Source: an uncultured Acidobacteriia bacterium (GTDB lineage Bacteria; Acidobacteriota; Terriglobia; Bryobacterales; Bryobacteraceae). From it: a DNA stretch of 64,000 bases. Below are positions 1,713-15,955 of the stretch, piece after piece. The notes beneath the pieces are model-generated. The model had not been told where the DNA came from and ran no database searches. It saw only the letters and a program-made list of their open reading frames with translations. The stretch is from assembly GCA_903851195.1 (NCBI GenBank), contig CAINNJ010000049.1, positions 1 to 64,000 on the forward strand, written 5' to 3'. The first letter of the stretch is position 1. Each line of letters begins with the position of its first letter. The translations under genes and the position numbers were made by a program.

Positions 1713-2963
1713 ATGAGACGCATCTTCACTTTTAAAGTTTTCCGATACCTGCTGCTGGCGAGTTTCGGCTCGGAACTGGGATCCTGGATTCAGCTCGCCG
1801 GATCCGACTGGTTCGTCACCGGTCAAACACTCGATCCCCTGCAGGTCTCGCTCCTGGGCGCGGCGATGAACCTGCCCACCTTTCTCTTCGGCATTCCCGC
1901 GGGCGTGATGGCCGATATTCTGGGCAGGCGCAGGATGCTGCTCATCGCGCAACTCTGGATGGTGTCCACGGCGATCGTCATGACCGTGATGCTGAAGTCC
2001 GGCGCCCTGGCTCCGCCGGCCTTGATCCTGCTGACGTTTTTTCTCTACAGCGGCATGGCGATGCAGGAACCCGCGCTTTACGCCACTTTCCCGGAGGTGG
2101 TTCCGCGCGACCTGCTGCCGACGGCAGTCACGCTTCACGGAGCGGAGTGGGCCTCGGCGCGCGTTCTGGGCCCGATTGTCGGCGGCGCCATGATGGCGAG
2201 ATGGGGCATTCCCTCGGCCTTCTTCGCGAATGTCGTCTCCTACTTTGGCCTGATCGCATTCCTCCTCTCCTGGAAGCCCGAGAAGCAGATCCGTTCGACG
2301 GCGCCGCGGTTCCTCGAATTGTTTCAGGAAGGACTCCGGCTGATCCGGACCTCGGGACGCCTGAGAAGAATTCTGATGCTCAGCGGATTGATTTCGTTGG
2401 GCGGCATGCCCCCGCTGGTCCTGACGCCGCTTCTGGCGCGCACCACGCTGCACGTGGACAGCAAGGGATTCGGTTTGCTGATGTCCTGCCTGGGTTTCGG
2501 ATCGCTGCTGGGCACGCTGGCCTCGGCAGGCCTGATTCGGCGCTTCAGCGCCACAACGGTCGGCGTGGCCGGACTGGTCCTGGCTGCCGGCGCTATTTTG
2601 GCGCAGTCCGTGGTGCACACACCGGTTCTGTTCGGCGCGCTGCTGGTGAGCAGCAGTTTCGGCACGATCCTCGCAACCATGGCCGTTGCGGTGGCCATGC
2701 AGAGCTGCCTGCCGGGGAATGTGCGCGGACGGATTATGGGCTTTTATCTGGTGCTGTTTTCGGGCGGCGCTTCGTTCGGCGCCGTGCTGACGGGCTGGGT
2801 CGCCCGCGAAGCCGGCGTATCCACAACGCAATGGGCGGCGAGCGTGTTGTTGCTGGCGCTCGCCGCCTCCATTTTGTCATCGGGCCTGCCGGTGCAGAAC
2901 GCGCCGGCGCCGGTCACCGAGGCTGAGCCGGACGCGCAATTGGTTCAGCGGGCTTCGGCTTAA
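1713..2963 (+). CDS. MFS transporter, EntS/MFS_3-like exporter
   Basis: A 416-residue membrane protein with about 12 hydrophobic segments. The N-terminal pattern FRYLLLASFGSELGSWIQ, the loop FGIPAGVMADILGRRRML between helices 2 and 3 (MFS motif A), and PALYATFPEVVPRDLLPTAVTLHG are typical of the MFS_3/enterobactin-exporter-like group, often annotated as an efflux or macrolide-type transporter. The start ATG follows an untranslated region with no strong Shine-Dalgarno sequence. Its TAA overlaps the stop of the convergent receptor gene by four bases, so the two transcripts end inside each other. The substrate cannot be read from sequence; siderophore or drug export would be usual guesses. Confidence 0.85.
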   Translation: MRRIFTFKVFRYLLLASFGSELGSWIQLAGSDWFVTGQTLDPLQVSLLGAAMNLPTFLFGIPAGVMADILGRRRMLLIAQLWMVSTAIVMTVMLKSGALAPPALILLTFFLYSGMAMQEPALYATFPEVVPRDLLPTAVTLHGAEWASARVLGPIVGGAMMARWGIPSAFFANVVSYFGLIAFLLSWKPEKQIRSTAPRFLELFQEGLRLIRTSGRLRRILMLSGLISLGGMPPLVLTPLLARTTLHVDSKGFGLLMSCLGFGSLLGTLASAGLIRRFSATTVGVAGLVLAAGAILAQSVVHTPVLFGALLVSSSFGTILATMAVAVAMQSCLPGNVRGRIMGFYLVLFSGGASFGAVLTGWVAREAGVSTTQWAASVLLLALAASILSSGLPVQNAPAPVTEAEPDAQLVQRASA

Positions 2964-5900
2964 AAGTCGTAGCGAAGCCCGAACTGCATCACCCTCGGCG
3001 TGGTCAGCGTGCTGGTATATTTCCCGAACGTCGCCGTGTTGCCGACGTCCAGGCTGGCCGTGCCGATATCGAAACGAACGGCGTTGGGCAGGTTAAAGAC
3101 TTCCGCGCGGAACTGCACCGAATGGGTTTCGCGGAACGGCATGACGAACCGTTTGGAGAGACTCATATCCCAGGTGAAGAACCCGTCTCCTCGCAGCACG
3201 TTCCGGCTTCCCACCTGGCCCGCATAGGAATAATCGAATGCGGCCAGACCCAGTTTCGGATCCGAGAAGAGGTTCGGCCCCCCAACACCGCTCACCGCCG
3301 GCGCATTCTTCGAATTGGTCGTAGCCGGAGGGGTGCTGATCGCCGTGGCAAAGCCCGAGAAACTCCAGCTGGTCGGCCAGCTTCCCGAATTGAGTACGCT
3401 TCGCGGCAGGCCGCTGGTGGCCACAAGGATGCTTCCCACCTGCCATCCACCCACCGCGGTTTCGAGCGGCTTCGGCAGAGAGGAAAGGAACCGCTGTCCT
3501 TTTCCGACCGGCAACTGATAAACCACCGAGCCGTTGACGGAGTGGCGCACGTCGAAGTCGGAAACGCCGCGGTTCAGCGAGGCATTGTAGGGGCTCAGCA
3601 AAAGCGCCACGCCGTTGGAGAATTCGCTCTCCGGCGAGGAAGTCAGATCCGTCGATTTGGACATCGTGTAGTTGAAATCGACCAGCGTGCTGGACGAGCG
3701 CTTCGACACTCTCCACTGCATCGCGTGATAGTTGCCCTTGCCGACCGACCGGTAAGCGAAGAGCGCCGCGTACTGAGAGTTAAACATCGAGTGCGAACCC
3801 AGGTTGCTGCAGACGTAGCAGTAGACGTCCAGGTCGAAAAGGACGGAAGTCAGGTCGGTGGGATAGTAAGAGACTTCCTGCGCGTAGATCTGCTGCGTCG
3901 CGGTCAGGCCGCCCGAGGCATACTTCGAAAACATATTTTCGAAGAACGGCTGCGGCTTGATGGAAGACACCGGAGCATAGTGGCGGGCCTGCTGTGACAA
4001 GGCGTTGAGAGCGTCGTAATAGGTTTGGCCGCTTTTCGGATCCTTCAGATTCGTGGACTGCGCAAGATCGCCAATCGTGATCGACCGTCTGGACAGCCGT
4101 CCCACATAGGAGCCCTGCGCGAGCCAGCCGTGGGCGAATTCCCGGCTGATCGACAGATTGAGGTTGATTGTGTAAGGCTGCTTAATATCCTGGTCGATGG
4201 TGTTGGCGATGGAAAATGCGGGGCCGGGCACACTGGGGAATCCGCCCTGCGGAGCGGCGGGCAGGACTCCGGACGGAATCACGCCGTAGTCGGAGTATCT
4301 CGGCTGCGTGGCCAGCGGCGCGCCGAACGGGGAGCGGACCAGCGAGGTCAGACCCGGCGCGTTGGAATCGAAGTTCCGCATAATGCTCATGCCGAACAGT
4401 TCGTAGAACATCCCGGCGCCGGCCCGGATCGAAGTTTTACCGGGTCCGCCGAACAGAAAGCGGCCGAGTCCGCTCTCGGCGGAGGGCGAATAAACCACTG
4501 CCAGACGGGGAGCGAAATTTCGTTTCTGGGTGTCGTAGAGAGGCTTGGCTCCGTTCGAACCCGCGAGCAGGAAACCGATCTGGCCCGCATCGGCCTGTGA
4601 TTTGCCTTCATTGGCCAGTTCGCCGCGCTTATAGAACCAGTCGCCCAGATTAATCGAGGGCGACACCTGGTATCCGTTGGTTTCGTAGATGGGAGGCGCC
4701 AGCGAGTACCGCAGACCGTAGTTGACCGTCAGGCTCTTCGTGACGCGCCACGCGTCGGTCACATAGAACTCATACTCTTCCGCGCCAAAGCGCCGTTTCA
4801 GGCCCTGCCCGAAAGGAGCCAGATTGCCTTTCAGGTCGTAGGTGTAGGTGGCGCTCGCGAGCGTCACCGGGCCCAGCAGATCGACCGCCGCGTTGCGATA
4901 CGCCAGCGAATAGTTGTAATTCAGATCCGCCGGCACCAGACCGAAGCCGGCCTGTTCCAGGTAACCGGGCGCGACAGACGCGGTCGGATAAGCCGTGGCG
5001 AAGTTGACGGAACTGTTCCGGATCACCCGGACCACGCCGCCGAAACTCACGTCGTGTTTCCCGGCGGTCCAGACCATGTCCTCGCTGAAATGATTGACCG
5101 GGATGATCCGGGTAAGGTCCGTGCTGGTGGATTGCAGCGGGGAAAGCCCCTGCAGGGTCACGTAGGCGGAGCTCACGGCTCCGGTGTTTTCGTGCCCGTA
5201 ACGGGTCAGACCGTAGCGGAAGCTGCTCACCAGGCTGGCTTTGACAGGCAGCGTCCAGCCAAAAGCCATTCCTTTGCTGTGATCGAGACTGTTCGATGCC
5301 GCCGGCTGGCCCAGGAATTCGGGCAACTGGCCGGTTTTATCGCCCTGCAAATTGCCGCGTAAAAAGAAGTTGTTTCTGCCCGCCGCGTAGTCGAGTTTCG
5401 CGATATAGGTGTTCTGCGAGGTGGGGGTGGCCGCCGAGAACCGATAGCCCGCGGTGTTCAGACCGTCGCCCTGCGTGTTGTCGTTGGGCATCGGATATTT
5501 ATTCAGGGTCGCGAGGACGGCCGAACTGACGCCTTTCCCCTGCGGGTCGAGCGCGCGGAGCTGCGCGGGTGAGATTGTCGAAACGCCACCCGCCGCGGTC
5601 AGATATTGCAGAGTTCCCTGACGGAATGCGGCGGTGGGCACCAGCCGGACCGCGGTGCTCTCGCTCGTGTCCCGCCGGCCTTCGTAATTCGCAAAAAGAA
5701 ACAGGTGGTCTTTCTTCAGCGGTCCGCCGACCGATCCGCCCGCGACGTTCCGGTTCAGTTTCTGACGCGGCAGCCCGGAGAGATTATTGAAGAACGTGTT
5801 GGCGCTGGTCGCTGTATTGCGGTTGAATTCGTAGAGAGATCCGTGAATGGTGTTGGTGCCGCCCCGGGTAACAAGGGCGATCTGCGCGCCGGACGTCCGA

Positions 5901-6601
5901 CCCTGGTCGGCCGTGGGGTTCTGGGTGGTGGTGCGGAATTCCTGGACGGAATCGAGGGTCACCCGCAGCACGGAGTTCAGGGGCGACCGGGTGTTCTGGT
6001 CGTTGACATCGACGCCGTCGAGCGTGATGTTGTTCTGATCCGGCTTCGACCCGTTGACCGAACCGTTCAGCCGCGACGCGGAGCTGTTGGGGTTGTCGGT
6101 TTCGCTGCCATAGTAGGTGACGCCGCCCTGCAGCGTGAGCAGCAGAGTCGGGTTTCGCGCTTCCAGGGGCAATTCGAGTATCGGGCGGGAGCCGATGGCA
6201 TTTCCGAGGGAAGCGTCCGTCAGATTGATCTGAGATGCATTCTCCTCCACGCTGATCGCGGTGCTTACGCTTCCCAGTTCCAGCTGGACCGGGAGAGTGG
6301 TCGGCGTATTGACCAGGAGTTCGATTCCGGTATAAGTGCGTTCGGCGAAAGACGCGGCTTTGGCCGAAAGGCGATACTTTCCGGGCAGCATTTGAGGAAA
6401 TCCGTAAAAGCCGCTTTCGTCCGTGACCGTTTTGCGCGTCAGAGGCGCTTCCAGGGCTGTCAGAGTGATTTCGGCGCGCGGGATAACCCGACCCGTCGGG
6501 TCGACCACCGTTCCGGTTAAACTGCTGAGCGACTGGCAGAACGCCGGGCCGGTCAGGAGAAGCGAAAACAAGATTTTCGGGACGAGGGCAGGGCGAGACA
6601 T
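2960..6601 (-). CDS. Oar-like TonB-dependent receptor with carboxypeptidase-regulatory domain (1)
   Basis: About 1213 residues. A signal peptide (ILFSLLLTGPAFCQ) is followed by a carboxypeptidase-regulatory-like beta-sandwich at about residues 25-110 (LTGTVVDPTGRVIPRAEITL, ESGFYGFPQMLPGKYRL). Then come a plug-like region with SVNGSKPDQNNITLDGVDVND and a long beta-barrel ending in RVMQFGLRYDF, the usual aromatic outer-membrane C-terminus. This is the Oar/SusC-like architecture abundant in Acidobacteriota, presumably importing oligosaccharide or peptide ligands across the outer membrane with TonB energy. I chose ATG 6601; an in-frame ATG six codons upstream (6619) is possible. It is clearly paralogous to the gene at 12272-15955, and the two bracket the formate dehydrogenase operon. 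Confidence 0.9.
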   Translation of the reverse strand: MSRPALVPKILFSLLLTGPAFCQSLSSLTGTVVDPTGRVIPRAEITLTALEAPLTRKTVTDESGFYGFPQMLPGKYRLSAKAASFAERTYTGIELLVNTPTTLPVQLELGSVSTAISVEENASQINLTDASLGNAIGSRPILELPLEARNPTLLLTLQGGVTYYGSETDNPNSSASRLNGSVNGSKPDQNNITLDGVDVNDQNTRSPLNSVLRVTLDSVQEFRTTTQNPTADQGRTSGAQIALVTRGGTNTIHGSLYEFNRNTATSANTFFNNLSGLPRQKLNRNVAGGSVGGPLKKDHLFLFANYEGRRDTSESTAVRLVPTAAFRQGTLQYLTAAGGVSTISPAQLRALDPQGKGVSSAVLATLNKYPMPNDNTQGDGLNTAGYRFSAATPTSQNTYIAKLDYAAGRNNFFLRGNLQGDKTGQLPEFLGQPAASNSLDHSKGMAFGWTLPVKASLVSSFRYGLTRYGHENTGAVSSAYVTLQGLSPLQSTSTDLTRIIPVNHFSEDMVWTAGKHDVSFGGVVRVIRNSSVNFATAYPTASVAPGYLEQAGFGLVPADLNYNYSLAYRNAAVDLLGPVTLASATYTYDLKGNLAPFGQGLKRRFGAEEYEFYVTDAWRVTKSLTVNYGLRYSLAPPIYETNGYQVSPSINLGDWFYKRGELANEGKSQADAGQIGFLLAGSNGAKPLYDTQKRNFAPRLAVVYSPSAESGLGRFLFGGPGKTSIRAGAGMFYELFGMSIMRNFDSNAPGLTSLVRSPFGAPLATQPRYSDYGVIPSGVLPAAPQGGFPSVPGPAFSIANTIDQDIKQPYTINLNLSISREFAHGWLAQGSYVGRLSRRSITIGDLAQSTNLKDPKSGQTYYDALNALSQQARHYAPVSSIKPQPFFENMFSKYASGGLTATQQIYAQEVSYYPTDLTSVLFDLDVYCYVCSNLGSHSMFNSQYAALFAYRSVGKGNYHAMQWRVSKRSSSTLVDFNYTMSKSTDLTSSPESEFSNGVALLLSPYNASLNRGVSDFDVRHSVNGSVVYQLPVGKGQRFLSSLPKPLETAVGGWQVGSILVATSGLPRSVLNSGSWPTSWSFSGFATAISTPPATTNSKNAPAVSGVGGPNLFSDPKLGLAAFDYSYAGQVGSRNVLRGDGFFTWDMSLSKRFVMPFRETHSVQFRAEVFNLPNAVRFDIGTASLDVGNTATFGKYTSTLTTPRVMQFGLRYDF

Positions 6602-6816
6602 TGTATCAATATGGCACAATTGCCTCGCATTCTCCAGAACAAAGTTGTTTAGGCCGCGTATTTGCTCCGGCGGTGGGTCGCCATGCCCGATGAATTACAG
6701 AAATGTGACAGCCTTTTCATCATGGGGCGGGCGCCGAAGCCCCCCGCCGCGCCCGCGCGTCCGGTTTCGAACACTGCCATCCCCATCGGAAGCCAATTTC
6801 TTCATATCCTGAGGAC
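6602..6816. other. Divergent intergenic region, receptor / formate dehydrogenase
   Basis: 215 bases separate the divergent starts. The dehydrogenase ATG at 6817 has TGAGG about 4 bases upstream as ribosome binding site. I see no confident -35/-10 pair and no obvious sigma-54 site (no GG-N10-GC element I could be sure of), so regulation is unresolved. Confidence 0.4.
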
Positions 6817-9800
6817 ATGGAACCCACGCCCGCCAGAGCCGCCGCCAGCCAGACGTTCAGCCCGAATTCCACCGCGAAGGGCCCCCGCACCCGCGGCGCC
6901 ACCGTCGTCCCGAGCGTCTGCCCGTACTGCGCGGTCGGCTGCGGGCAGCACATCTACGTCAAAGACGGCCGCGTGATCGATATCGAAGGCAATCCGGACA
7001 GCCCCATTAACGAAGGCACTCTTTGTCCGAAGGGCGCCAATACGTTCCAGCTGTCGGTCAACCCGCACCGCATTACCCAGGTTCTGTATCGCGCTCCTTA
7101 TTCCGAACGCTGGGAGCACAAGCCTCTGGACTGGGCGGTGAGCCGGATCGCCGAAAGAGTGAAGGAAACCCGCGATCGCGACTTCATCGAAGAGCGCGAG
7201 GGCACGGTGATGAATCACCTCACCACCATTGCGTCGCTGGGCGGCGCCACCATGGACAACGAAGAGAACTATCTGATCAAGAAACTCTTCAACGGCGGGC
7301 TGGGAATTCTGCCGATCGAAAATCAGGCCCGTATTTGACACAGCGCATCGGTGCCCGGTCTGGGCACCACCATGGGCCGCGGCGCGGCCACCAGTTTTCA
7401 GGAGGATCTGCGGAATTCCGACTGCATCCTGATTATGGGCTCAAACATGGCGGAAGCGCACCCGGTCGGGTTCCGCTTCCCCATGAAGGCGCGGGAACGC
7501 GGCGCGCAACTGATCCACGTGGATCCGCACTTCACGCGCACCTCGGCCATGTGTCAGCAGTACGTGCCGATCCGGACGGGCAGCGACATTGCCTTCCTTG
7601 GCGGGCTGATCCGCTACGTGCTCGACAACGACCGCTGGTTCCGCGAGTACGTTCTGGCATACACGAACGCCGCGACCATCATTAATGAGGAGTTTCAGGA
7701 CGCCGAAGATCTGGAGGGCATGTTCTCCGGCTTCGACACGAAGACGAAAGCCTACGATTACAAGAAGGCCGGCTGGTCGTATGAGGGCGAGGAGGTGGCG
7801 AAATCGGAACCGCCTCCGGAGATTAAGACGGAGTCGTTCAGCCAGCGTCTTGCCTCATTGCGGAATCCCACGCCGCCTTCCGACCCGGAGCTGAAGCATC
7901 CGCGCTGCGTGATGAATATCGTGCGGCGGCATTATGAGCGCTACACGCCGGAGATGGTGGCGGCGACGTGTGGCTGCAGCGTCGAGGAGTTTCTGCGCGT
8001 GGCGGAAACGCTGTGCGCGAATTCGGGGCGGGAGCGCACGTCCGCGATCGTTTACGCCGTGGGCTGGACGCAACACAGCGTCGGCGTGCAGATCATCCGA
8101 GCGGCGGGCATTCTGCAGCTTTTGCTGGGAAACATCGGCAGGCCGGGCGGCGGGATCATGGCGATGCGGGGTCATGCGAGCATTCAGGGCTCCACCGACG
8201 TGCCGACGCTTTACGATCTGCTGCCCGGCTACATTCCGCAGCCCGCCGTGATGCGCGACCATGCCGACCTGCACGGCTATCTGGAACAGGAAAAGGTCAC
8301 GCACGGCTACTGGGCGAATCTGCCGAAATTCATGGTCAGCCTGCTGAAGGCCTGGTACGGACCGGCGGCGACCAAAGACAACGACTTCGGCTACAGCTGG
8401 ATTCCCCGGCTCGACAACAACTACTCGCAGCTGCCGACATTTCTGCGCATGGCGGAAGGCAAGGTGCGGGGGCTGTTTCTCTTCGGACAGAATCCGGCTG
8501 CGGGTGCGCCGAACGCGAAACTGCACCGGGCGGCGATGCGGCAACTGGACTGGCTGGTGGTTCGCGACTGGTTCGAGATCGAGAGCGCCTGTTACTGGTA
8601 CAAAGGCCCGGAAGGCGTGGATCCGAAGACCGTCCCGACCGAGATTTTCTTCATGCCGGCCGCTTCGTCGCCGGAAAAGGACGGCACGCTCACCAATACG
8701 CAACGGCTGCTGCAATGGCACGACAAGGCAATCGATCCGACAGGCGACTGCCGCTCCGACCTGGGTTTTCTGTTCGATCTGGGCAAGCGGCTGAAAGCGC
8801 TCTACGCGGGGTCGGACAAGGCGCGCGATCAGGGTCTGCTCAACCTCACGTGGGATTACGGTTTCGACAGCCCGCCGATGCTGCCCGACGGCCGTCCGAG
8901 CCGCCTGCCGGATGAGCCGGACGCCGAAAAGGTGTTGCGCGAGATCAACGGCTATACGGTTGCGGACAACAGGCAGGTGAAAGGTTTTTCCGAGCTGAAG
9001 GACGATGGGTCCACTGCCTGCGGCTGCTGGATTTACAGCGGCGTGTATCCGGCCCCGGGTTACAACCGGGCGCGGGAGCGGAAGCGCAATCCGGACAATT
9101 ACACCAGCCCGAACTGGGGTTTCGCGTGGCCGCACAACCGGCGCATGATGTACAACCGCGCGTCGGCGGATCCCGAGGGGCGGCCGTGGTCGGAGCGCAA
9201 AAAATATATCTGGTGGGACGAGGCGGCGAAGCGCTGGACCGGCGTGGACGAGCCGGATTTCGAGCCCGACAAAGCGCCTTCGTACCGCCCGCCGGAGGGC
9301 GCCACGGGCATGGCTTCCATCGCGGGCAATTCGCCGTTCATTATGAAGCCGGACGGCAAGGGCTGGCTGTACGCGCCGGCGGGAACGAAAGACGGACCGC
9401 TGCCGACGCACTACGAGCCGATCGAATCGCCGGTCGCGAATCTGTTGTACCGGCAGCAGGAGAATCCGACTATCGAACGCTACGATGTTCCGATGAATGC
9501 GAAATCGGCGCCGCTCGATCCGGAGTATCCGATTGTCGCGACCACGTTCCGCCTGACCGAGCATTATCTGAGCGGTCCGATGAGCCGGTTCAACAGCTGG
9601 CTGAACGAACTGCAGCCGGCGATGTTCATCGAACTCAGCCCGGAACTGGCGGCGGAGCGCGGCATCGAACATGGCGGCTGGCTGGTGGCGTGGAACAAGC
9701 GCGGGGCCATTGAGGCGCGCGCCATGGTCACCCGGCGGGTGCGGCCGCTGCAGGTGGACGGGCGGACCGTGCACCAGATCGCCATCCCGTTTCATTGGGG

Positions 9801-10020
9801 CTTCGCGGGCGAGGTGGTGGGTTCATCGGCCAACGATCTGACGTCGATTGTGGCGGATGCCAATGTCAGCATGCATGAGGCGAAGGCCTTCGTGGTGAAC
9901 GTTCGGCCCGGCCGCGTGGAAGACTTCAAAGATCTGCCGCTGCGGGCCGCGCCGTGGCCGACATACCGGGCGGCGCCCGATGCGCCGCGCTCCGCGCAGC
10001 CGGAAGGACAGGAAGATTGA
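6817..10020 (+). CDS. fdhA: Formate dehydrogenase catalytic subunit, selenocysteine-containing (UGA at 7336-7338)
   Basis: Two open frames, 6817-7338 and 7339-10020, are in the same phase and separated only by TGA. Reading it as selenocysteine gives a 1067-residue protein with Sec at position 174 in ENQARI-Sec-HSASVPGLGTT. This aligns with the E. coli FdnG motif DNQARV-Sec-HGPTVASL. Cys35, Cys38, Cys42 and Cys70 (CPYCAVGC...LCPKG) bind one [4Fe-4S] cluster. NMAEAHPVGFRFPMKARE, GWTQHSVGVQIIRA and GNIGRPGGGIMAMRGHASIQG are molybdopterin-binding segments of the DMSO-reductase family. It oxidises formate to CO2 (or the reverse) at a Mo/W bis-pterin site. Unlike FdnG the N-terminus shows no twin-arginine signal, so a cytoplasmic orientation is inferred. 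The next gene starts within its stop codon (TTGA). Confidence 0.95.
7336..7368 (+). promoter_or_regulatory. Bacterial SECIS element directing Sec insertion
   Basis: Directly after the UGA is a perfect 7-bp hairpin, ggtgccc / gggcacc (7350-7356 with 7362-7368), closed by the loop GGTCT (7357-7361). The loop starts at nucleotide 22 counted from the U of UGA, the same spacing I count in the E. coli fdhF SECIS, whose loop also carries GGUCU. The flanking bases TGACAC...CATCGG are also shared. SelB should bind this loop; selA, selB and selC are not in the window. Confidence 0.92.
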
Positions 10021-10850
10021 ACGCGAATCCTTTCACTCTCGAAATGCTGGACGTCTGGAAGCGTCCGGAGCCGCCGAAGCAGCAGGTGGAGACCGGGTTC
10101 TTCACGGACACCACGCTGTGCATCGGCTGCAAGGCCTGCGAGGTGGCCTGCAAGCAGTGGAATCAGTTGCCCGGCGACGGTTTTCACTGGACCGGCAACA
10201 GCTACGACAACACGAGCGCCCTTTCGGCGACTACCTGGCGGCACGTCGCGTTCGTGGAGCAGATGGACGGCACGGGCGGCCACGTTCCCCGCTGGCTGAT
10301 GATGAGCGACGTCTGCAAGCACTGCGTGCAGGCGCCGTGTCAGGAGGCGTGCCCCACCGGATCGCTGATTTACAACGAATTCGGCAATGTTTACGTGCAG
10401 CAGGATATCTGCAACGGCTGCGCCTACTGCGTGGTGGCGTGCCCGTTCGGCGTGCTGGACCGCAATCATCAGGACGGCAAAGCCCATAAGTGCACGCTTT
10501 GCTACGACCGGCAGAAAGACGGGATGACGCCCGCCTGCGCGAAATCCTGCCCGACCGCTTCGATTCAGTTCGGGCCTGTGGAAGAACTGCGCGAACGAGC
10601 GCGGAAACGCGTGGAGGAGTTGCAGGCGCGCGGCGAGACCGACGCCTATCTGTATGGGGCGGAGGCGACGGAAGAGTACAGCGCGCTGAACTCTTTCTTC
10701 CTGCTGAAAGACAAGCCGACCGTTTACAATCTGCCGGAGGCGCCGAAGCGTCCGGTGGACAATCTGAAAACCAATTATCTGGTGAGTTTCGCGACGGCCG
10801 TGGGCCTGACTGTGCTCTCCGCGCTGTGTTTTTCGAGGGGGAAGAAATGA
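10017..10850 (+). CDS. fdhB: Formate dehydrogenase iron-sulfur (beta) subunit
   Basis: 277 residues with four cysteine clusters of the FdnH/HycB type: CIGCKACEVACKQW (35-45), CKHCVQAPCQEACP, CNGCAYCVVACPFGV and CTLCYDRQKDGMTPACAKSCP. A single C-terminal hydrophobic helix (NYLVSFATAVGLTVLSAL) should anchor it to the membrane. It relays electrons from the catalytic subunit to the membrane subunit. I chose the TTG at 10017, which overlaps the upstream TGA as TTGA and has AGGA-rich sequence just before it; longer starts would run into the upstream gene. Its own stop overlaps the next ATG (ATGA), so translation of the three genes is coupled. Confidence 0.93.
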   Translation: MNANPFTLEMLDVWKRPEPPKQQVETGFFTDTTLCIGCKACEVACKQWNQLPGDGFHWTGNSYDNTSALSATTWRHVAFVEQMDGTGGHVPRWLMMSDVCKHCVQAPCQEACPTGSLIYNEFGNVYVQQDICNGCAYCVVACPFGVLDRNHQDGKAHKCTLCYDRQKDGMTPACAKSCPTASIQFGPVEELRERARKRVEELQARGETDAYLYGAEATEEYSALNSFFLLKDKPTVYNLPEAPKRPVDNLKTNYLVSFATAVGLTVLSALCFSRGKK

Positions 10851-11791
10851 CGCCGGCGGTAGAAGGCTATTACAACCTGCCGATGCTGAAACGGCCGTTG
10901 TGGGGCTGGGAAATCGCGCTGTATTTCTTTTCCGAAGGAATCAGCTCGGGGACGTTCATTCTCGCGACGCTCGCGGACGTTTGCGGCTCGGGCCGCTATG
11001 CGGCATTGATTTCGCAGGCACACGCCGTGGCGTTCGTGTCGTTGCTGCCGTGCCCGCCGTTATTGATCGCGGATCTGGGCCGGCCGGAACGCTTCCACCA
11101 CATGCTGCGGACGTTCAAAATCAGTTCGCCGATGAGCGTAGGCGCGTGGGCGCTGCTCGGATTCAGCGCGCCGGTAACGCTGCTCGCTCTGACCCGGTTC
11201 CGTTGGTTTCGCTGGATTCCGGCGAAGGCCGTCGGCTTGGCCGGCATGCCGTTTGCGCTGTTCATGCTCGGCTATCCGGGAGTCTTGCTTTCCACGACCA
11301 GCATTCCGGTGTGGTCGCAGTCGAGATGGCTTGGGGCTTTGCTGACAGCCAGTTCGATGGCTTGCGGCGCCAGCGCGTTGGCGATCGCCACGGCGCTTCA
11401 TCCCGCGGGTAAGGCGCCGGCGCGGGAAGCGATTCACCGGATCGAAGGGTTGGTCAACGTGGCGGAAGCCGCGGTTCTCGCCGGTTATGTCTATACGGCC
11501 GGACCCGCGGCGCACCCTCTGACCAAAGGCAGGCAGTCGAAACTGTTTTTGTTCGGAGCGGTGGTGGCGGGCCTGGCGCTGCCGGCGCTGATCACGGCGA
11601 CGCGGAAGAAGCCAGGCCGGAGTTCCACGATTCTCTCCGGAGCCCTGTCGCTGGCAGGGGCACTGGCGCTGAAATGGTCGATCGTTCACGCGGGGCGGGA
11701 ATCGGCGGACGATGCGGCGGGGACGCGGGCGGTGACGAGAGCAACACCGACAAACCGGGGCTGGCGTCAGCCGGAGGCGGCGCGGTCCTGA
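10847..11791 (+). CDS. NrfD/PsrC-type membrane subunit of formate dehydrogenase
   Basis: 314 residues with about eight hydrophobic helices. The N-terminus YYNLPMLKRPLWGWEIALYFFSEGISSGTFILATLAD and the sequence LIADLGRPERFHHMLRTFKISSPMSVGAW are hallmarks of NrfD/PsrC quinone-interacting membrane subunits, not of the cytochrome b FdnI type (no paired haem histidines seen). It should exchange electrons with the quinone pool. The ATG overlaps the stop of the Fe-S subunit (ATGA) and is preceded by GAGGGGG. The C-terminal ~25 residues are charged and non-hydrophobic. Together the three genes form an FdhABC respiratory complex with an NrfD-type anchor. Confidence 0.92.
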   Translation: MTPAVEGYYNLPMLKRPLWGWEIALYFFSEGISSGTFILATLADVCGSGRYAALISQAHAVAFVSLLPCPPLLIADLGRPERFHHMLRTFKISSPMSVGAWALLGFSAPVTLLALTRFRWFRWIPAKAVGLAGMPFALFMLGYPGVLLSTTSIPVWSQSRWLGALLTASSMACGASALAIATALHPAGKAPAREAIHRIEGLVNVAEAAVLAGYVYTAGPAAHPLTKGRQSKLFLFGAVVAGLALPALITATRKKPGRSSTILSGALSLAGALALKWSIVHAGRESADDAAGTRAVTRATPTNRGWRQPEAARS

Positions 11792-12271: not shown

Positions 12272-15200
12272 CTAGAATTCGTAACGCAAACCGAACTGCA
12301 TCACGCGGGGCTGGGTGAGCAGGGAAGTGTACTTGCCGAACGTGCCGGTATTTCCCACGTCCAGACTGGCGCTGTTGACATCGAAACGAACCGCGTTCGG
12401 CACGTTGAAGACTTCCCAGCGGAACTGCATGCTGTGCGTGTCTTTGTACGGCATGACGAAGCGCTTGGAGAGCGTCATATCGATGGTGAAGAAGCCGTCG
12501 CCGCGGATCCCGTTGCGCTGGCCGGCCTCACCGGCGTACGAGTAATCATAAGCGGCGCGCGCGGGCGTGGGATTGGCGAAGATGTTCGGACCGGCTGACC
12601 CGTCGATCCCAGGAGCATTCCGCGTGGTGGCCGGTGAGGGCACCACGCCGATCTGTGTCGCGAAGCCGGAATAATTCCAGTTCGTCGGCCAGCTGCCGGA
12701 GTTATTCACGCTGCGGGGGAGTCCGCTGGTGATGTTATACAGACCGGAGACCTGCCAGCCTCCGATGATCCCGTTCACCACCTTGTTTGCGCCGCCGAAC
12801 AGCTTCTGGCCCTTGCCAACCGGCAACTGATAAACCGCGAAGCCGCTGACTGAGTGGCGGACGTCGAAATCGGAAACGCCTTTATTCAGGGCGGTGTTGT
12901 ACGGGTTGAGCAGGATGCCGTAAGAGGAGTTATTGAAGTCGCTCTCGGAATTCGAGGTCAAATCGATGGATTTCGCCAGCGTGTAATTGAAATCGAACAG
13001 CAGTCCGTTGGAGAATTTCTTGCGGACCGTCCACTGCATCGCGTGATAGTAGCCTTTGCCGATGGACCGGTAAGCGAACAGGGAAGCGTACTGCGCGTTG
13101 AACATCGAGTTCGCGCCCAGGGTGCTGCAGGAACTGCCGTCGCACAGTTCGTCGATATCGAGCAGGCCCGAAGTAATGTCGGTGGGATAGGAGGAGAACT
13201 CAGAATCGTAGATGCCCTGGGTCGCGGTCAGACCGCCCCCCGCGTAGCCCGGAAAGAGGTTTTCCCAGAACGCGTTGGTCTTGATTTGCGATGTCGGGAC
13301 ACCGGCGCGGGCCGCGCGGGCCAGATCGTTGACGGCCTGCCAGTAGGTGATGCCGCTCTTCGGGTCTTTCAGATTGGTGGGCTGGGCGAGATCGGTCACC
13401 ACGAGCGAGCGGCGGGAGAGACGCCCCACGTAGGACCCCTGCACGAAGAAGCCGTGGCTGAACTCGCGGCCGATGCTGAAGTTCAGATTCATCGTGTAGG
13501 GCTGCTTCAGATGCTGATCGATGGAATTGGAAATCGCAAAGCCGTGGTCGGTATCGCTGGGCGCATAGTACGGGAAGCCGCCCTTCGGCGCCGTGGGCAG
13601 CAAGCCGGCGGGCAGCGACGAGTAGCCGGTGAAGCGCGGCGTGGTGGCCAGGGAAGCGCTGGCGGGCGACTGGAATTCCGTGCTTAGTCCCGGCGCGTTG
13701 GAATCGAAGTTGCGCATGAGGCTCATGCCGAACAGATCGTAGAACATGCCGAAGCCGGCGCGAATGGACGTCTTCCCGGCATCGCCGAACAGGGTTTTTG
13801 CCAGACCGGAACTTGCCTGCGGAGAGTAGGCCAGCGCCAGCCGTGGCGAGAAGTTCTTCTTCGGCGTGTCATAGAGCGGCTTGCCCTGGGCGCTGCTTGC
13901 CAGCACGAAACCCACGGGACCGGCCAGCGCCTGGCTCTTGCCCGCGTTGGCCAGGTTGCCGCGCAGCGCGAACCAGTCGCCCAGGTCCACGTTCGGGGAC
14001 ACCTGGTAGCCATTGGCCTCATGAATGGCCGGAGCCAGTGAGTAACGCAGGCCGTAAGTCACGGTGAAGCTTTTTGCCACGCGCCAGCTGTCGCTCACAT
14101 ACAACTCGTATTCGTTGCCGACGTACTTTCTCTGCACCGGGGCGCCGAACGGAAGCACACTGCCGTCGAGCTTGTAGTTATAAGTAACGTCTCCGAAAGA
14201 GACCGGCCCCAACAGATCCACCGCGGCGACGCGGTACGAAGTACTGAAGCTGGAGGATAAGTCGGCCGGTTTCAGGGAAGCGCCGGTGCCCGCGAGATAC
14301 GAGTAAGTCACGGAGCCGTTCGGGTAAGACGTCGCGTAATTGGTGGAGTTGTTGCTGATCAGCCGCACAATCCCGCCGAACTTCACGTCGTGACTTCCCT
14401 TGCTCCAGGAAAGATCGTCGCTGAACTGGTGCACCGGAATGATGCGGGTCACACCGGTCGTGGTGGAGTTCAGCGTGGAAAGTCCGCGGAACGAAACGTA
14501 GGGCGAGTTCTGAATGCCGGTATTCTCGTGTCCGGACCTCGTGTAGCCGTAGCGAACCGTGCTCACCAGACGGGGGCTGATCACCGACGTCCAACCGGCT
14601 GCGTAGCCCTTGCTGTTATCGAGCGTCACCGACGAGGGCGCCTGTCCGGGAAACTGAGGCAGGCCACCCAGATTGTCGTTCTGCAGATTGCCTCGCCAGA
14701 AGACCATGTTCCGGCTGTTCTTATCCACCGCGTAATCCACCTTGGCGATGTAAGTCGCGAGGCGGACGGGCTGCGAGGCTTTAAAGCGATAGCCGGAGGT
14801 ATTGAAGCCGTCGCCCTGCGTGTCGTCATTCGGCCGGGGGTACTGATTCAGCACCTGCAGAACCGCCGGATTCACCCCCAGACCCGCGGGATCGATCTGC
14901 TTGAGCTGAGCGGCAGTCAGCGTGGAAACACCACCCGAGTTGTTCAGGTACTTCACGATTCCCTGCCGGAAAGAAGCGGTGGGAACGATACGGGTTGCGG
15001 TGCCGTCGCTCGCGTCCCGCCGGCCTTCGTAATTCAGAAAGTAGAACAGGCGGTTCTGCTTCACCGGACCGCCGACCGACGCGCCGAACGTGTTCCGGAT
15101 CAGCTTCTGCCGTTCCACGCCGGACCGGTTGTTGAAGAAGCTGTTGGCGCTCGTGATGGTGTTGCGGTGGTACTCGTAGAGCGAGCCGTGCAGCGTGTTC

Positions 15201-15955
15201 GTGCCGCTCTTCGTCACCAGAGCGATCTGCGCGCCGGAGCCTCGCCCCTGTTCGGCGGTCGCGTTCTGGGTAGTGGTGCGGAACTCCTGGACCGAATCCA
15301 GCGTCACGCGGAGCACGCTCTGGAAGGCGCTGCGCGTGTTCTGGTCGTTGACATCCACGCCATCGAGAGTGATGTTGTTCTGGTCCGGCTTGCTGCCGTT
15401 TACCGAGCCGTTCAGGCGATCCGCCGTGCCGATGGTGCCGCCCGTGGGACGTCCATATGTAGCACCCTGCCCGAAGTACGTGACGCCGGGCTGCAGCGCG
15501 AGCAGACTCGCCGGATTGCGCGCTTCGAAGGGCAGCTGAATAATCGCGTCGGTGGTGACCGCGTTGCCGAGCGAGGCATCCACGGTGTTTACCTGAGCCG
15601 CTTCGGAGACTACGGAAACGGTCTCGCTTACGGAACCCACGGTGAGTTTCAGCGGAACGGTGGCAGGCGTATTGACCTCGAGCGTCAGGTTGTCCATGGT
15701 GACCACCGCGAAACCCGGCGCGGTCGCCGTGAGCTTATACTTGCCCGGCGTGAGCTGGCCGAAGGAGTAGAGCCCGGACGCATCGGAAAGCACGCTGCGT
15801 TTCGCGGCCGTTTCCAGATTGAGCGTGTCCACCACCGCTCCGGCGACGGCGGCTCCCGAAGGATCCGTCACCCTGCCGTTCAGCGAGGTGAAACTCTGGC
15901 TGAAAGAAATTCCGGCACTGAGGCCGATTAAAAAGACCGTCCGTACGAAAGTCAT
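12272..15955 (-). CDS. Oar-like TonB-dependent receptor with carboxypeptidase-regulatory domain (2)
   Basis: 1227 residues. Signal peptide (VFLIGLSAGISFSQ), a carboxypeptidase-regulatory-like domain (LNGRVTDPSGAAVAGAVVD...SGLYSFGQLTPGKYKL), the plug segment SVNGSKPDQNNITLDGVDVND identical to receptor 1, and a barrel ending VMQFGLRYEF. Similarity to 2960-6601 is visible along the whole length (for example DSVQEFRTTTQNATAEQGR against DSVQEFRTTTQNPTADQGR), so they are paralogues from an old duplication. The ATG at 15955 has AGGGGA a few bases upstream. The ligand is unknown; the neighbouring TonB C-terminal protein may supply energy coupling. Confidence 0.9.
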   Translation of the reverse strand: MTFVRTVFLIGLSAGISFSQSFTSLNGRVTDPSGAAVAGAVVDTLNLETAAKRSVLSDASGLYSFGQLTPGKYKLTATAPGFAVVTMDNLTLEVNTPATVPLKLTVGSVSETVSVVSEAAQVNTVDASLGNAVTTDAIIQLPFEARNPASLLALQPGVTYFGQGATYGRPTGGTIGTADRLNGSVNGSKPDQNNITLDGVDVNDQNTRSAFQSVLRVTLDSVQEFRTTTQNATAEQGRGSGAQIALVTKSGTNTLHGSLYEYHRNTITSANSFFNNRSGVERQKLIRNTFGASVGGPVKQNRLFYFLNYEGRRDASDGTATRIVPTASFRQGIVKYLNNSGGVSTLTAAQLKQIDPAGLGVNPAVLQVLNQYPRPNDDTQGDGFNTSGYRFKASQPVRLATYIAKVDYAVDKNSRNMVFWRGNLQNDNLGGLPQFPGQAPSSVTLDNSKGYAAGWTSVISPRLVSTVRYGYTRSGHENTGIQNSPYVSFRGLSTLNSTTTGVTRIIPVHQFSDDLSWSKGSHDVKFGGIVRLISNNSTNYATSYPNGSVTYSYLAGTGASLKPADLSSSFSTSYRVAAVDLLGPVSFGDVTYNYKLDGSVLPFGAPVQRKYVGNEYELYVSDSWRVAKSFTVTYGLRYSLAPAIHEANGYQVSPNVDLGDWFALRGNLANAGKSQALAGPVGFVLASSAQGKPLYDTPKKNFSPRLALAYSPQASSGLAKTLFGDAGKTSIRAGFGMFYDLFGMSLMRNFDSNAPGLSTEFQSPASASLATTPRFTGYSSLPAGLLPTAPKGGFPYYAPSDTDHGFAISNSIDQHLKQPYTMNLNFSIGREFSHGFFVQGSYVGRLSRRSLVVTDLAQPTNLKDPKSGITYWQAVNDLARAARAGVPTSQIKTNAFWENLFPGYAGGGLTATQGIYDSEFSSYPTDITSGLLDIDELCDGSSCSTLGANSMFNAQYASLFAYRSIGKGYYHAMQWTVRKKFSNGLLFDFNYTLAKSIDLTSNSESDFNNSSYGILLNPYNTALNKGVSDFDVRHSVSGFAVYQLPVGKGQKLFGGANKVVNGIIGGWQVSGLYNITSGLPRSVNNSGSWPTNWNYSGFATQIGVVPSPATTRNAPGIDGSAGPNIFANPTPARAAYDYSYAGEAGQRNGIRGDGFFTIDMTLSKRFVMPYKDTHSMQFRWEVFNVPNAVRFDVNSASLDVGNTGTFGKYTSLLTQPRVMQFGLRYEF

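Follow-up and report, generated by a model that had tools for sequence, protein, structure and literature searches.

A formate dehydrogenase gene of an acidobacterium with an in-frame UGA predicted to encode selenocysteine, and its relatives in other phyla

The stretch of DNA analyzed here (64,000 nucleotides of an uncultured member of the Bryobacteraceae, hereafter "the window") contains fdhA, a gene for the alpha subunit of a formate dehydrogenase, which on the sequence evidence is almost certainly a canonical bacterial selenoprotein gene, with the UGA codon at 7336 read as selenocysteine (Sec) by way of SelB and a SECIS hairpin, using the standard machinery. It is a sound and ordinary example of a well-known mechanism. 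The features are as follows:

6817..10020, plus strand: fdhA, formate dehydrogenase alpha subunit, 1067 residues with predicted Sec at position 174; presumed start ATG
7336..7338, plus strand: UGA codon predicted to be read as selenocysteine (Sec174, followed by His175)
7350..7368, plus strand: SECIS hairpin, arms 7350-7356 and 7362-7368, loop GGTCT at 7357-7361
10017..10850, plus strand: fdhB, iron-sulfur subunit, overlapping the end of fdhA; presumed start TTG
10847..11791, plus strand: NrfD-type membrane subunit, by Pfam match; ATG at 10847

Counted from the ATG at 6817, the in-frame TGA (7336-7338) is codon 174 of 1067, a conserved catalytic position. ORF finding alone splits fdhA into two ORFs of 173 aa (6817-7338) and 889 aa (from GTG, 7351-10020), much as the earlier note on this DNA had foreseen, and thereby loses the catalytic residue, which matters mostly for annotation. 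Searches against the PDB revealed homology that extends across both sides of the UGA, and the codon is aligned inside solved Sec-containing formate dehydrogenases. The highest-scoring solved relative is a selenocysteine-containing alpha subunit (PDB 9qm0, E-value 2.3e-235, residues 25-1030), to which about ten further entries, among them 8bqg and 6sdr, are near-identical. E. coli FdnG (PDB 1kqf; fdnG in NC_000913) is homologous over residues 21-1030 (E-value 2.3e-221), and the aligned codon of E. coli fdnG is itself UGA, which bears out the placement of the TGA at the Sec position of FdnG.

In order to assess the conservation of this codon we compared 128 loci. In a sample of 297 genomes of the phylum, 31 had FdhA matches (E <= 1e-150), 33 in all, of which 30 entered the comparison as loci; a sample of 150 genomes of the family contained 58 with a match (20 taken as loci, the window included); and a scan of genome contigs found 101 FdhA relatives, of which 79 loci were kept. 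All loci but one (L116, which begins after residue 174) have a match spanning this residue, and the codon is TGA in 127 of 127, a count that includes the window and two records occurring twice and hence stands for at most 125 different loci. As the query had Cys at residue 174, the search did not favour TGA; the comparison covers the nearest relatives, more distant Cys forms lying outside it. Among the listed rows, phylum and family matches without an internal stop begin after the Sec site, save one (G310), whose locus (L206) has TGA at the Sec codon after realignment. It could be argued that an error in sequencing or assembly turned TGC or TGT into TGA, or that fdhA is a pseudogene broken at this codon. 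We regard this as hardly credible, given the same codon in every spanning locus, the frame conserved on both sides of it and the covarying hairpin behind it (see below). The earlier note had reckoned with a sequencing error, which the 127 TGA codons rule out in practice, and with a lack of selB or selC, both of which are present in the genome.

In bacteria, a SECIS element is a hairpin just 3' of the UGA whose apical loop has a conserved GU. The window gene has a hairpin of this type with the loop GU at 7350-7368 (GGTGCCC-GGTCT-GGGCACC), in which the stem of 7 bp is perfect and the end at 7368 is exactly as reported before. We screened all 1620 TGA triplets of the window (812 and 808 on the two strands), and the one at 7336 is the sole site followed in the same register by an [AG]GT[CT]T loop with 6 or more of the 7 pairs formed, G-U included; it is also the sole site with 7/7 Watson-Crick pairs at that register, whatever the loop. 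The Rfam model SECIS_3 matched the hairpin (32.3 bits, E-value 1.2e-05) below its gathering score of 63, which is why a gathering-level Rfam scan of the window was empty. Since SECIS_3 models one SECIS class only, the missed gathering score does not define what kind of element this is. The fold of the single sequence is only mildly unusual (z = -1.69; 9 of 200 shuffles fold equally well), and better evidence than either the Rfam score or the single fold comes from covariation.

Across relatives the hairpin covaries. In 55 loci picked for diversity from 108, the seven SECIS pairs are formed in 91.7% of cells, against 76.8% in shuffled and 36-50% in slid alignments, and double-sided changes occur in 45 cells, against 14.9 in shuffles. 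Four of five covariation measures were matched by 0 of 500 shuffles, while the fifth, the number of pairs changed on both sides (4, against a shuffled mean of 2.9), was reached by 75 of 500; these figures are to be read with the caveat that kinship among sequences can beat shuffles without any structure. The outer pair 15-33 is weak, being unpaired in 20 of the 55 loci. Over the 108 loci the loop reads GGTCT (63), AGTCT (24), AGTTT (20) or GGGCT (1), with G23 in all of them and T24 in 107. With the U of UGA as position 1, the GGTCT of the window occupies positions 22-26, and so does the AGTCT of E. coli fdnG. The description of the element as near-identical to an E. coli-type SECIS therefore holds for the loop and for its distance, as measured against fdnG (the earlier note had likened the distance to that of E. 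coli fdhF), but not for the helix, which is bulge-free in the window and carries a bulged U17 in the fold of E. coli fdnG.

U17 is invariant over the 108 loci, and the opposite base is A (60), G (40), C (6) or T (2), so that in 100 of 108 it faces A or G, where E. coli fdnG has a bulge. A non-bulged U17 could possibly mean a difference in SelB recognition, and the helix with U17 opposite A31 or G31 may be a recognition variant of its own. Since U17 also forms the second position of a Val codon, its invariance is not attributable to RNA recognition alone. We built a SECIS model (R1) from the 55 fdhA loci and applied it to the genome; among the best 150 of 5055 first-look candidates, which were scored, the fdhA site was the only match. 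The model did not list the hairpin of selD described below, hence it is too narrow for surveying other selenoproteins.

The earlier note had predicted a working Sec system, and all four genes were found over cut-off: selA (491.1 bits, cut-off 267.9; contig C58), selB (347.3 bits, cut-off 242.25; contig C64), selC (tRNA-Sec, 69 bits, cut-off 47; contig C23) and selD (356.3 bits, cut-off 125; contig C23). They are dispersed, and none lies on the contig of the window (C49). SelB retains the winged-helix domains SelB-wing_2 and SelB-wing_3 (Pfam), and the tRNA-Sec has the anticodon TCA (ARAGORN) and an acceptor stem of 8 bp in its fold. The coding sequence of selD is likewise interrupted by an in-frame TGA, within the motif AAG-U-ASKLSP (L019:2389-2391, minus strand), followed by a 6-bp hairpin with the loop AGTTA, and selD is likely a second selenoprotein gene of this genome; Sec-type SelD is well known (PMC1794560).

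With these components, SelA would turn seryl-tRNA into Sec-tRNA with selenophosphate supplied by SelD, and at UGA 7336 the downstream hairpin would hold SelB with GTP and Sec-tRNA(Sec), so that the ribosome inserts selenocysteine instead of terminating. On the sequence evidence, Sec insertion at this codon is strongly supported. A different way to read through the codon would be a genome-wide reassignment of UGA (e.g. to tryptophan or glycine), which would make the TGA an ordinary sense codon. This is extremely improbable: fdhA itself ends in TGA (10018-10020), across which fdhB begins in another frame, selD is also terminated by TGA, and among the 8 loci scanned for tRNAs a tRNA-Trp(CCA) is present and the sole tRNA with a TCA anticodon is tRNA-Sec. 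It could further be proposed that the UGA acts as a partial, regulated stop and the 173-residue fragment is a real product, made in a ratio set by the selenium supply. At the Sec UGA codons of E. coli, SelB decoding and termination do compete, which lends this proposal some substance; yet the fragment would comprise the Fe4S4 domain (residues 29-78) and break off early in the molybdopterin domain match (140-585), and no sign in the sequence marks it as a separate product. We consider it improbable, and prefer selenocysteine as the product of decoding at this codon.

The tRNA-Sec gene (L009:1501-1595) is followed just behind by a tyrosine integrase gene (PF00589, 90.7 bits; L009:1620-2783, minus strand), which suggests that selC serves here as the integration site of a mobile element. 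In E. coli, selC is known as an integration site. When we looked for a repeat of the tRNA-Sec 3' end that could mark an attachment site, we recovered the tRNA itself only, on a contig that ends about 2.7 kb beyond.

The product of fdhA is best described by the NCBIfam model NF041513 (formate_DH_Act; 1493.3 bits, cut-off 1400, residues 13-1035), although the window comes from Acidobacteriota and we take "Act" to stand for Actinobacteria. TIGR01553, the model of the formate dehydrogenase-N alpha subunit, is also over its cut-off (999.6 bits vs 814.2). According to Pfam the protein contains the Fe4S4 and molybdopterin domains mentioned above. Cys 35, 38, 42 and 70, Sec174-His175 and the motif RGHASIQGSTD at 451 are all present, with roles for these cysteines, for Sec174-His175 and for Arg451 that we assume to be those of the E. 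coli enzymes. The product would thus be a Mo/W-pterin formate dehydrogenase alpha subunit with a formate site made up of Sec174, His175 and probably Arg451.

As in E. coli, the gene for an iron-sulfur subunit comes next. FdhB matches Fer4_11 (83.9 bits) and other Fer4 families of Pfam, and scores 176.9 bits with TIGR01582 (FDH-beta), under the cut-off of 334.7. The third gene matches PF03916 (NrfD, 88.9 bits, cut-off 25.8) and PF14589 (NrfD_2, 60.4 bits), and scores 53.8 bits with the NCBIfam nrfD model TIGR03148, under the cut-off of 347.6; its product is likely the quinone-reactive anchor. FdhA, FdhB and the NrfD-like membrane protein would then, most likely, pass electrons from formate to quinone. 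Downstream of fdhA, 69 of 127 loci have an FdhB-like as well as an NrfD-like gene; among the 70 loci whose sequence extends 4.5 kb or more beyond the Sec codon, 56 have the two. The loci without an NrfD match are mainly Methylobacterium-type and Tat-type.

The formate dehydrogenase-N of E. coli has a Tat signal on its alpha subunit and a cytochrome gamma subunit, FdnI. In the window, the 70 in-frame residues ahead of the first Fe-S cysteine of FdhA show no Tat pattern, and there is no RR between its ATG and that cysteine, and hence the catalytic side is probably cytoplasmic. Among 108 loci the Tat pattern was positive in 29, a rough figure, as the pattern is crude: it overlooks plain Tat-like starts (e.g. 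L042, L091) and accepts one or more questionable ones (L028). The name "FdnG" given before is consequently apt for the family of the catalytic subunit (TIGR01553), but NF041513 fits better, and the absence of a Tat motif and the NrfD-like partner set the protein apart from FdnG. An E. coli-type formate dehydrogenase-N complex was not recognized in the window by any of three features, namely a Tat signal, a TIGR01582 score over cut-off and an FdnI-type gamma subunit.

We gauged the distribution of the Sec trait by SelB, because the count of tRNA-Sec (206 of 297 phylum genomes, 28 of them with a best E-value of 1e-9 to 1e-8 by hand count) is probably too high: the search with the tRNA-Sec family lacks full specificity, as 5 of 14 control genomes also scored over cut-off, and of these five we take E. 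coli and M. jannaschii alone to be Sec users. SelB is over cut-off in 194 of the 297 genomes of the phylum and in 128 of the 150 of the family. The remark that selenoproteins are patchy in Acidobacteriota is thus true of the phylum sample but not of the window's family, Bryobacteraceae, in whose genomes the Sec trait is common. All four other sampled genomes of the window's genus have SelB, but only one has an FdhA match (43% identity). By hand tally, SelB was found at E <= 1e-60 in 27 of the 31 FdhA-bearing genomes of the phylum (all but G039, G055, G261 and G277) and in 53 of the 58 of the family (all but G299, G302, G335, G362 and G425), and tRNA-Sec at E <= 1e-8 in 28 of the 31 (all but G180, G253 and G261). 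G261 yielded neither SelB nor tRNA-Sec at these thresholds despite its FdhA; such gaps may be due to draft genomes. A table of 2006 gives the number of selenoprotein families in Acidobacteria as 3 and that of selenoproteins as 4 (PMC1794560, Table 2), and the main text of PMC5029168 does not mention Acidobacteria. Our literature searches found no paper joining formate dehydrogenase, selenocysteine and Acidobacteria with NrfD, and none joining formate dehydrogenase and selenocysteine with Solibacter.

In a quick FdhA tree of 50 rows, in which 10 of 47 inner branches are left open, Tat-type enzymes including E. coli FdnG split from a clade of 41 rows, to which the window belongs. The members of this clade are mostly Tat-less; Tat-like starts occur within it in Thermomicrobiota and a few others. 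The FdhA of the window clusters with three loci of Acidobacteriota (L117, L055, L054), next to which stand loci of Abditibacteriota, Planctomycetota and Eremiobacterota (Vulcanimicrobiota). Four further loci from the family of the window, together with L104, cluster with a locus of Geobacteraceae, and a third group of Acidobacteriota stands apart. Constrained trees, with two trees compared per test, were rejected both when the 13 Acidobacteriota rows of the clade were held together (p-AU 5.6e-53) and when the nine rows of the window's and the second group were (p-AU 2.0e-05, a set defined post hoc from the tree). A single type of Sec formate dehydrogenase is spread over several phyla. The pattern suggests that fdhA spread horizontally into lineages that were already Sec-capable. 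An ancient duplication with subsequent losses is a possible but less favoured explanation. Building on horizontal spread, we tentatively propose, as a possible rather than a probable reading, that the Tat-less fdhA-fdhB-nrfD operon forms a selenoprotein cassette in its own right and passes from phylum to phylum without sel genes, into lineages that are Sec-capable beforehand, and that its SECIS helix (U17 vs A31/G31) perhaps represents the recognition variant considered above.

The fdh operon of the window is flanked by two similar-looking long ORFs on the minus strand, at 2960-6619 and 12272-15955 (1219 and 1227 residues), which by eye appear TonB-receptor-like, with a carboxypeptidase-regulatory-like start.
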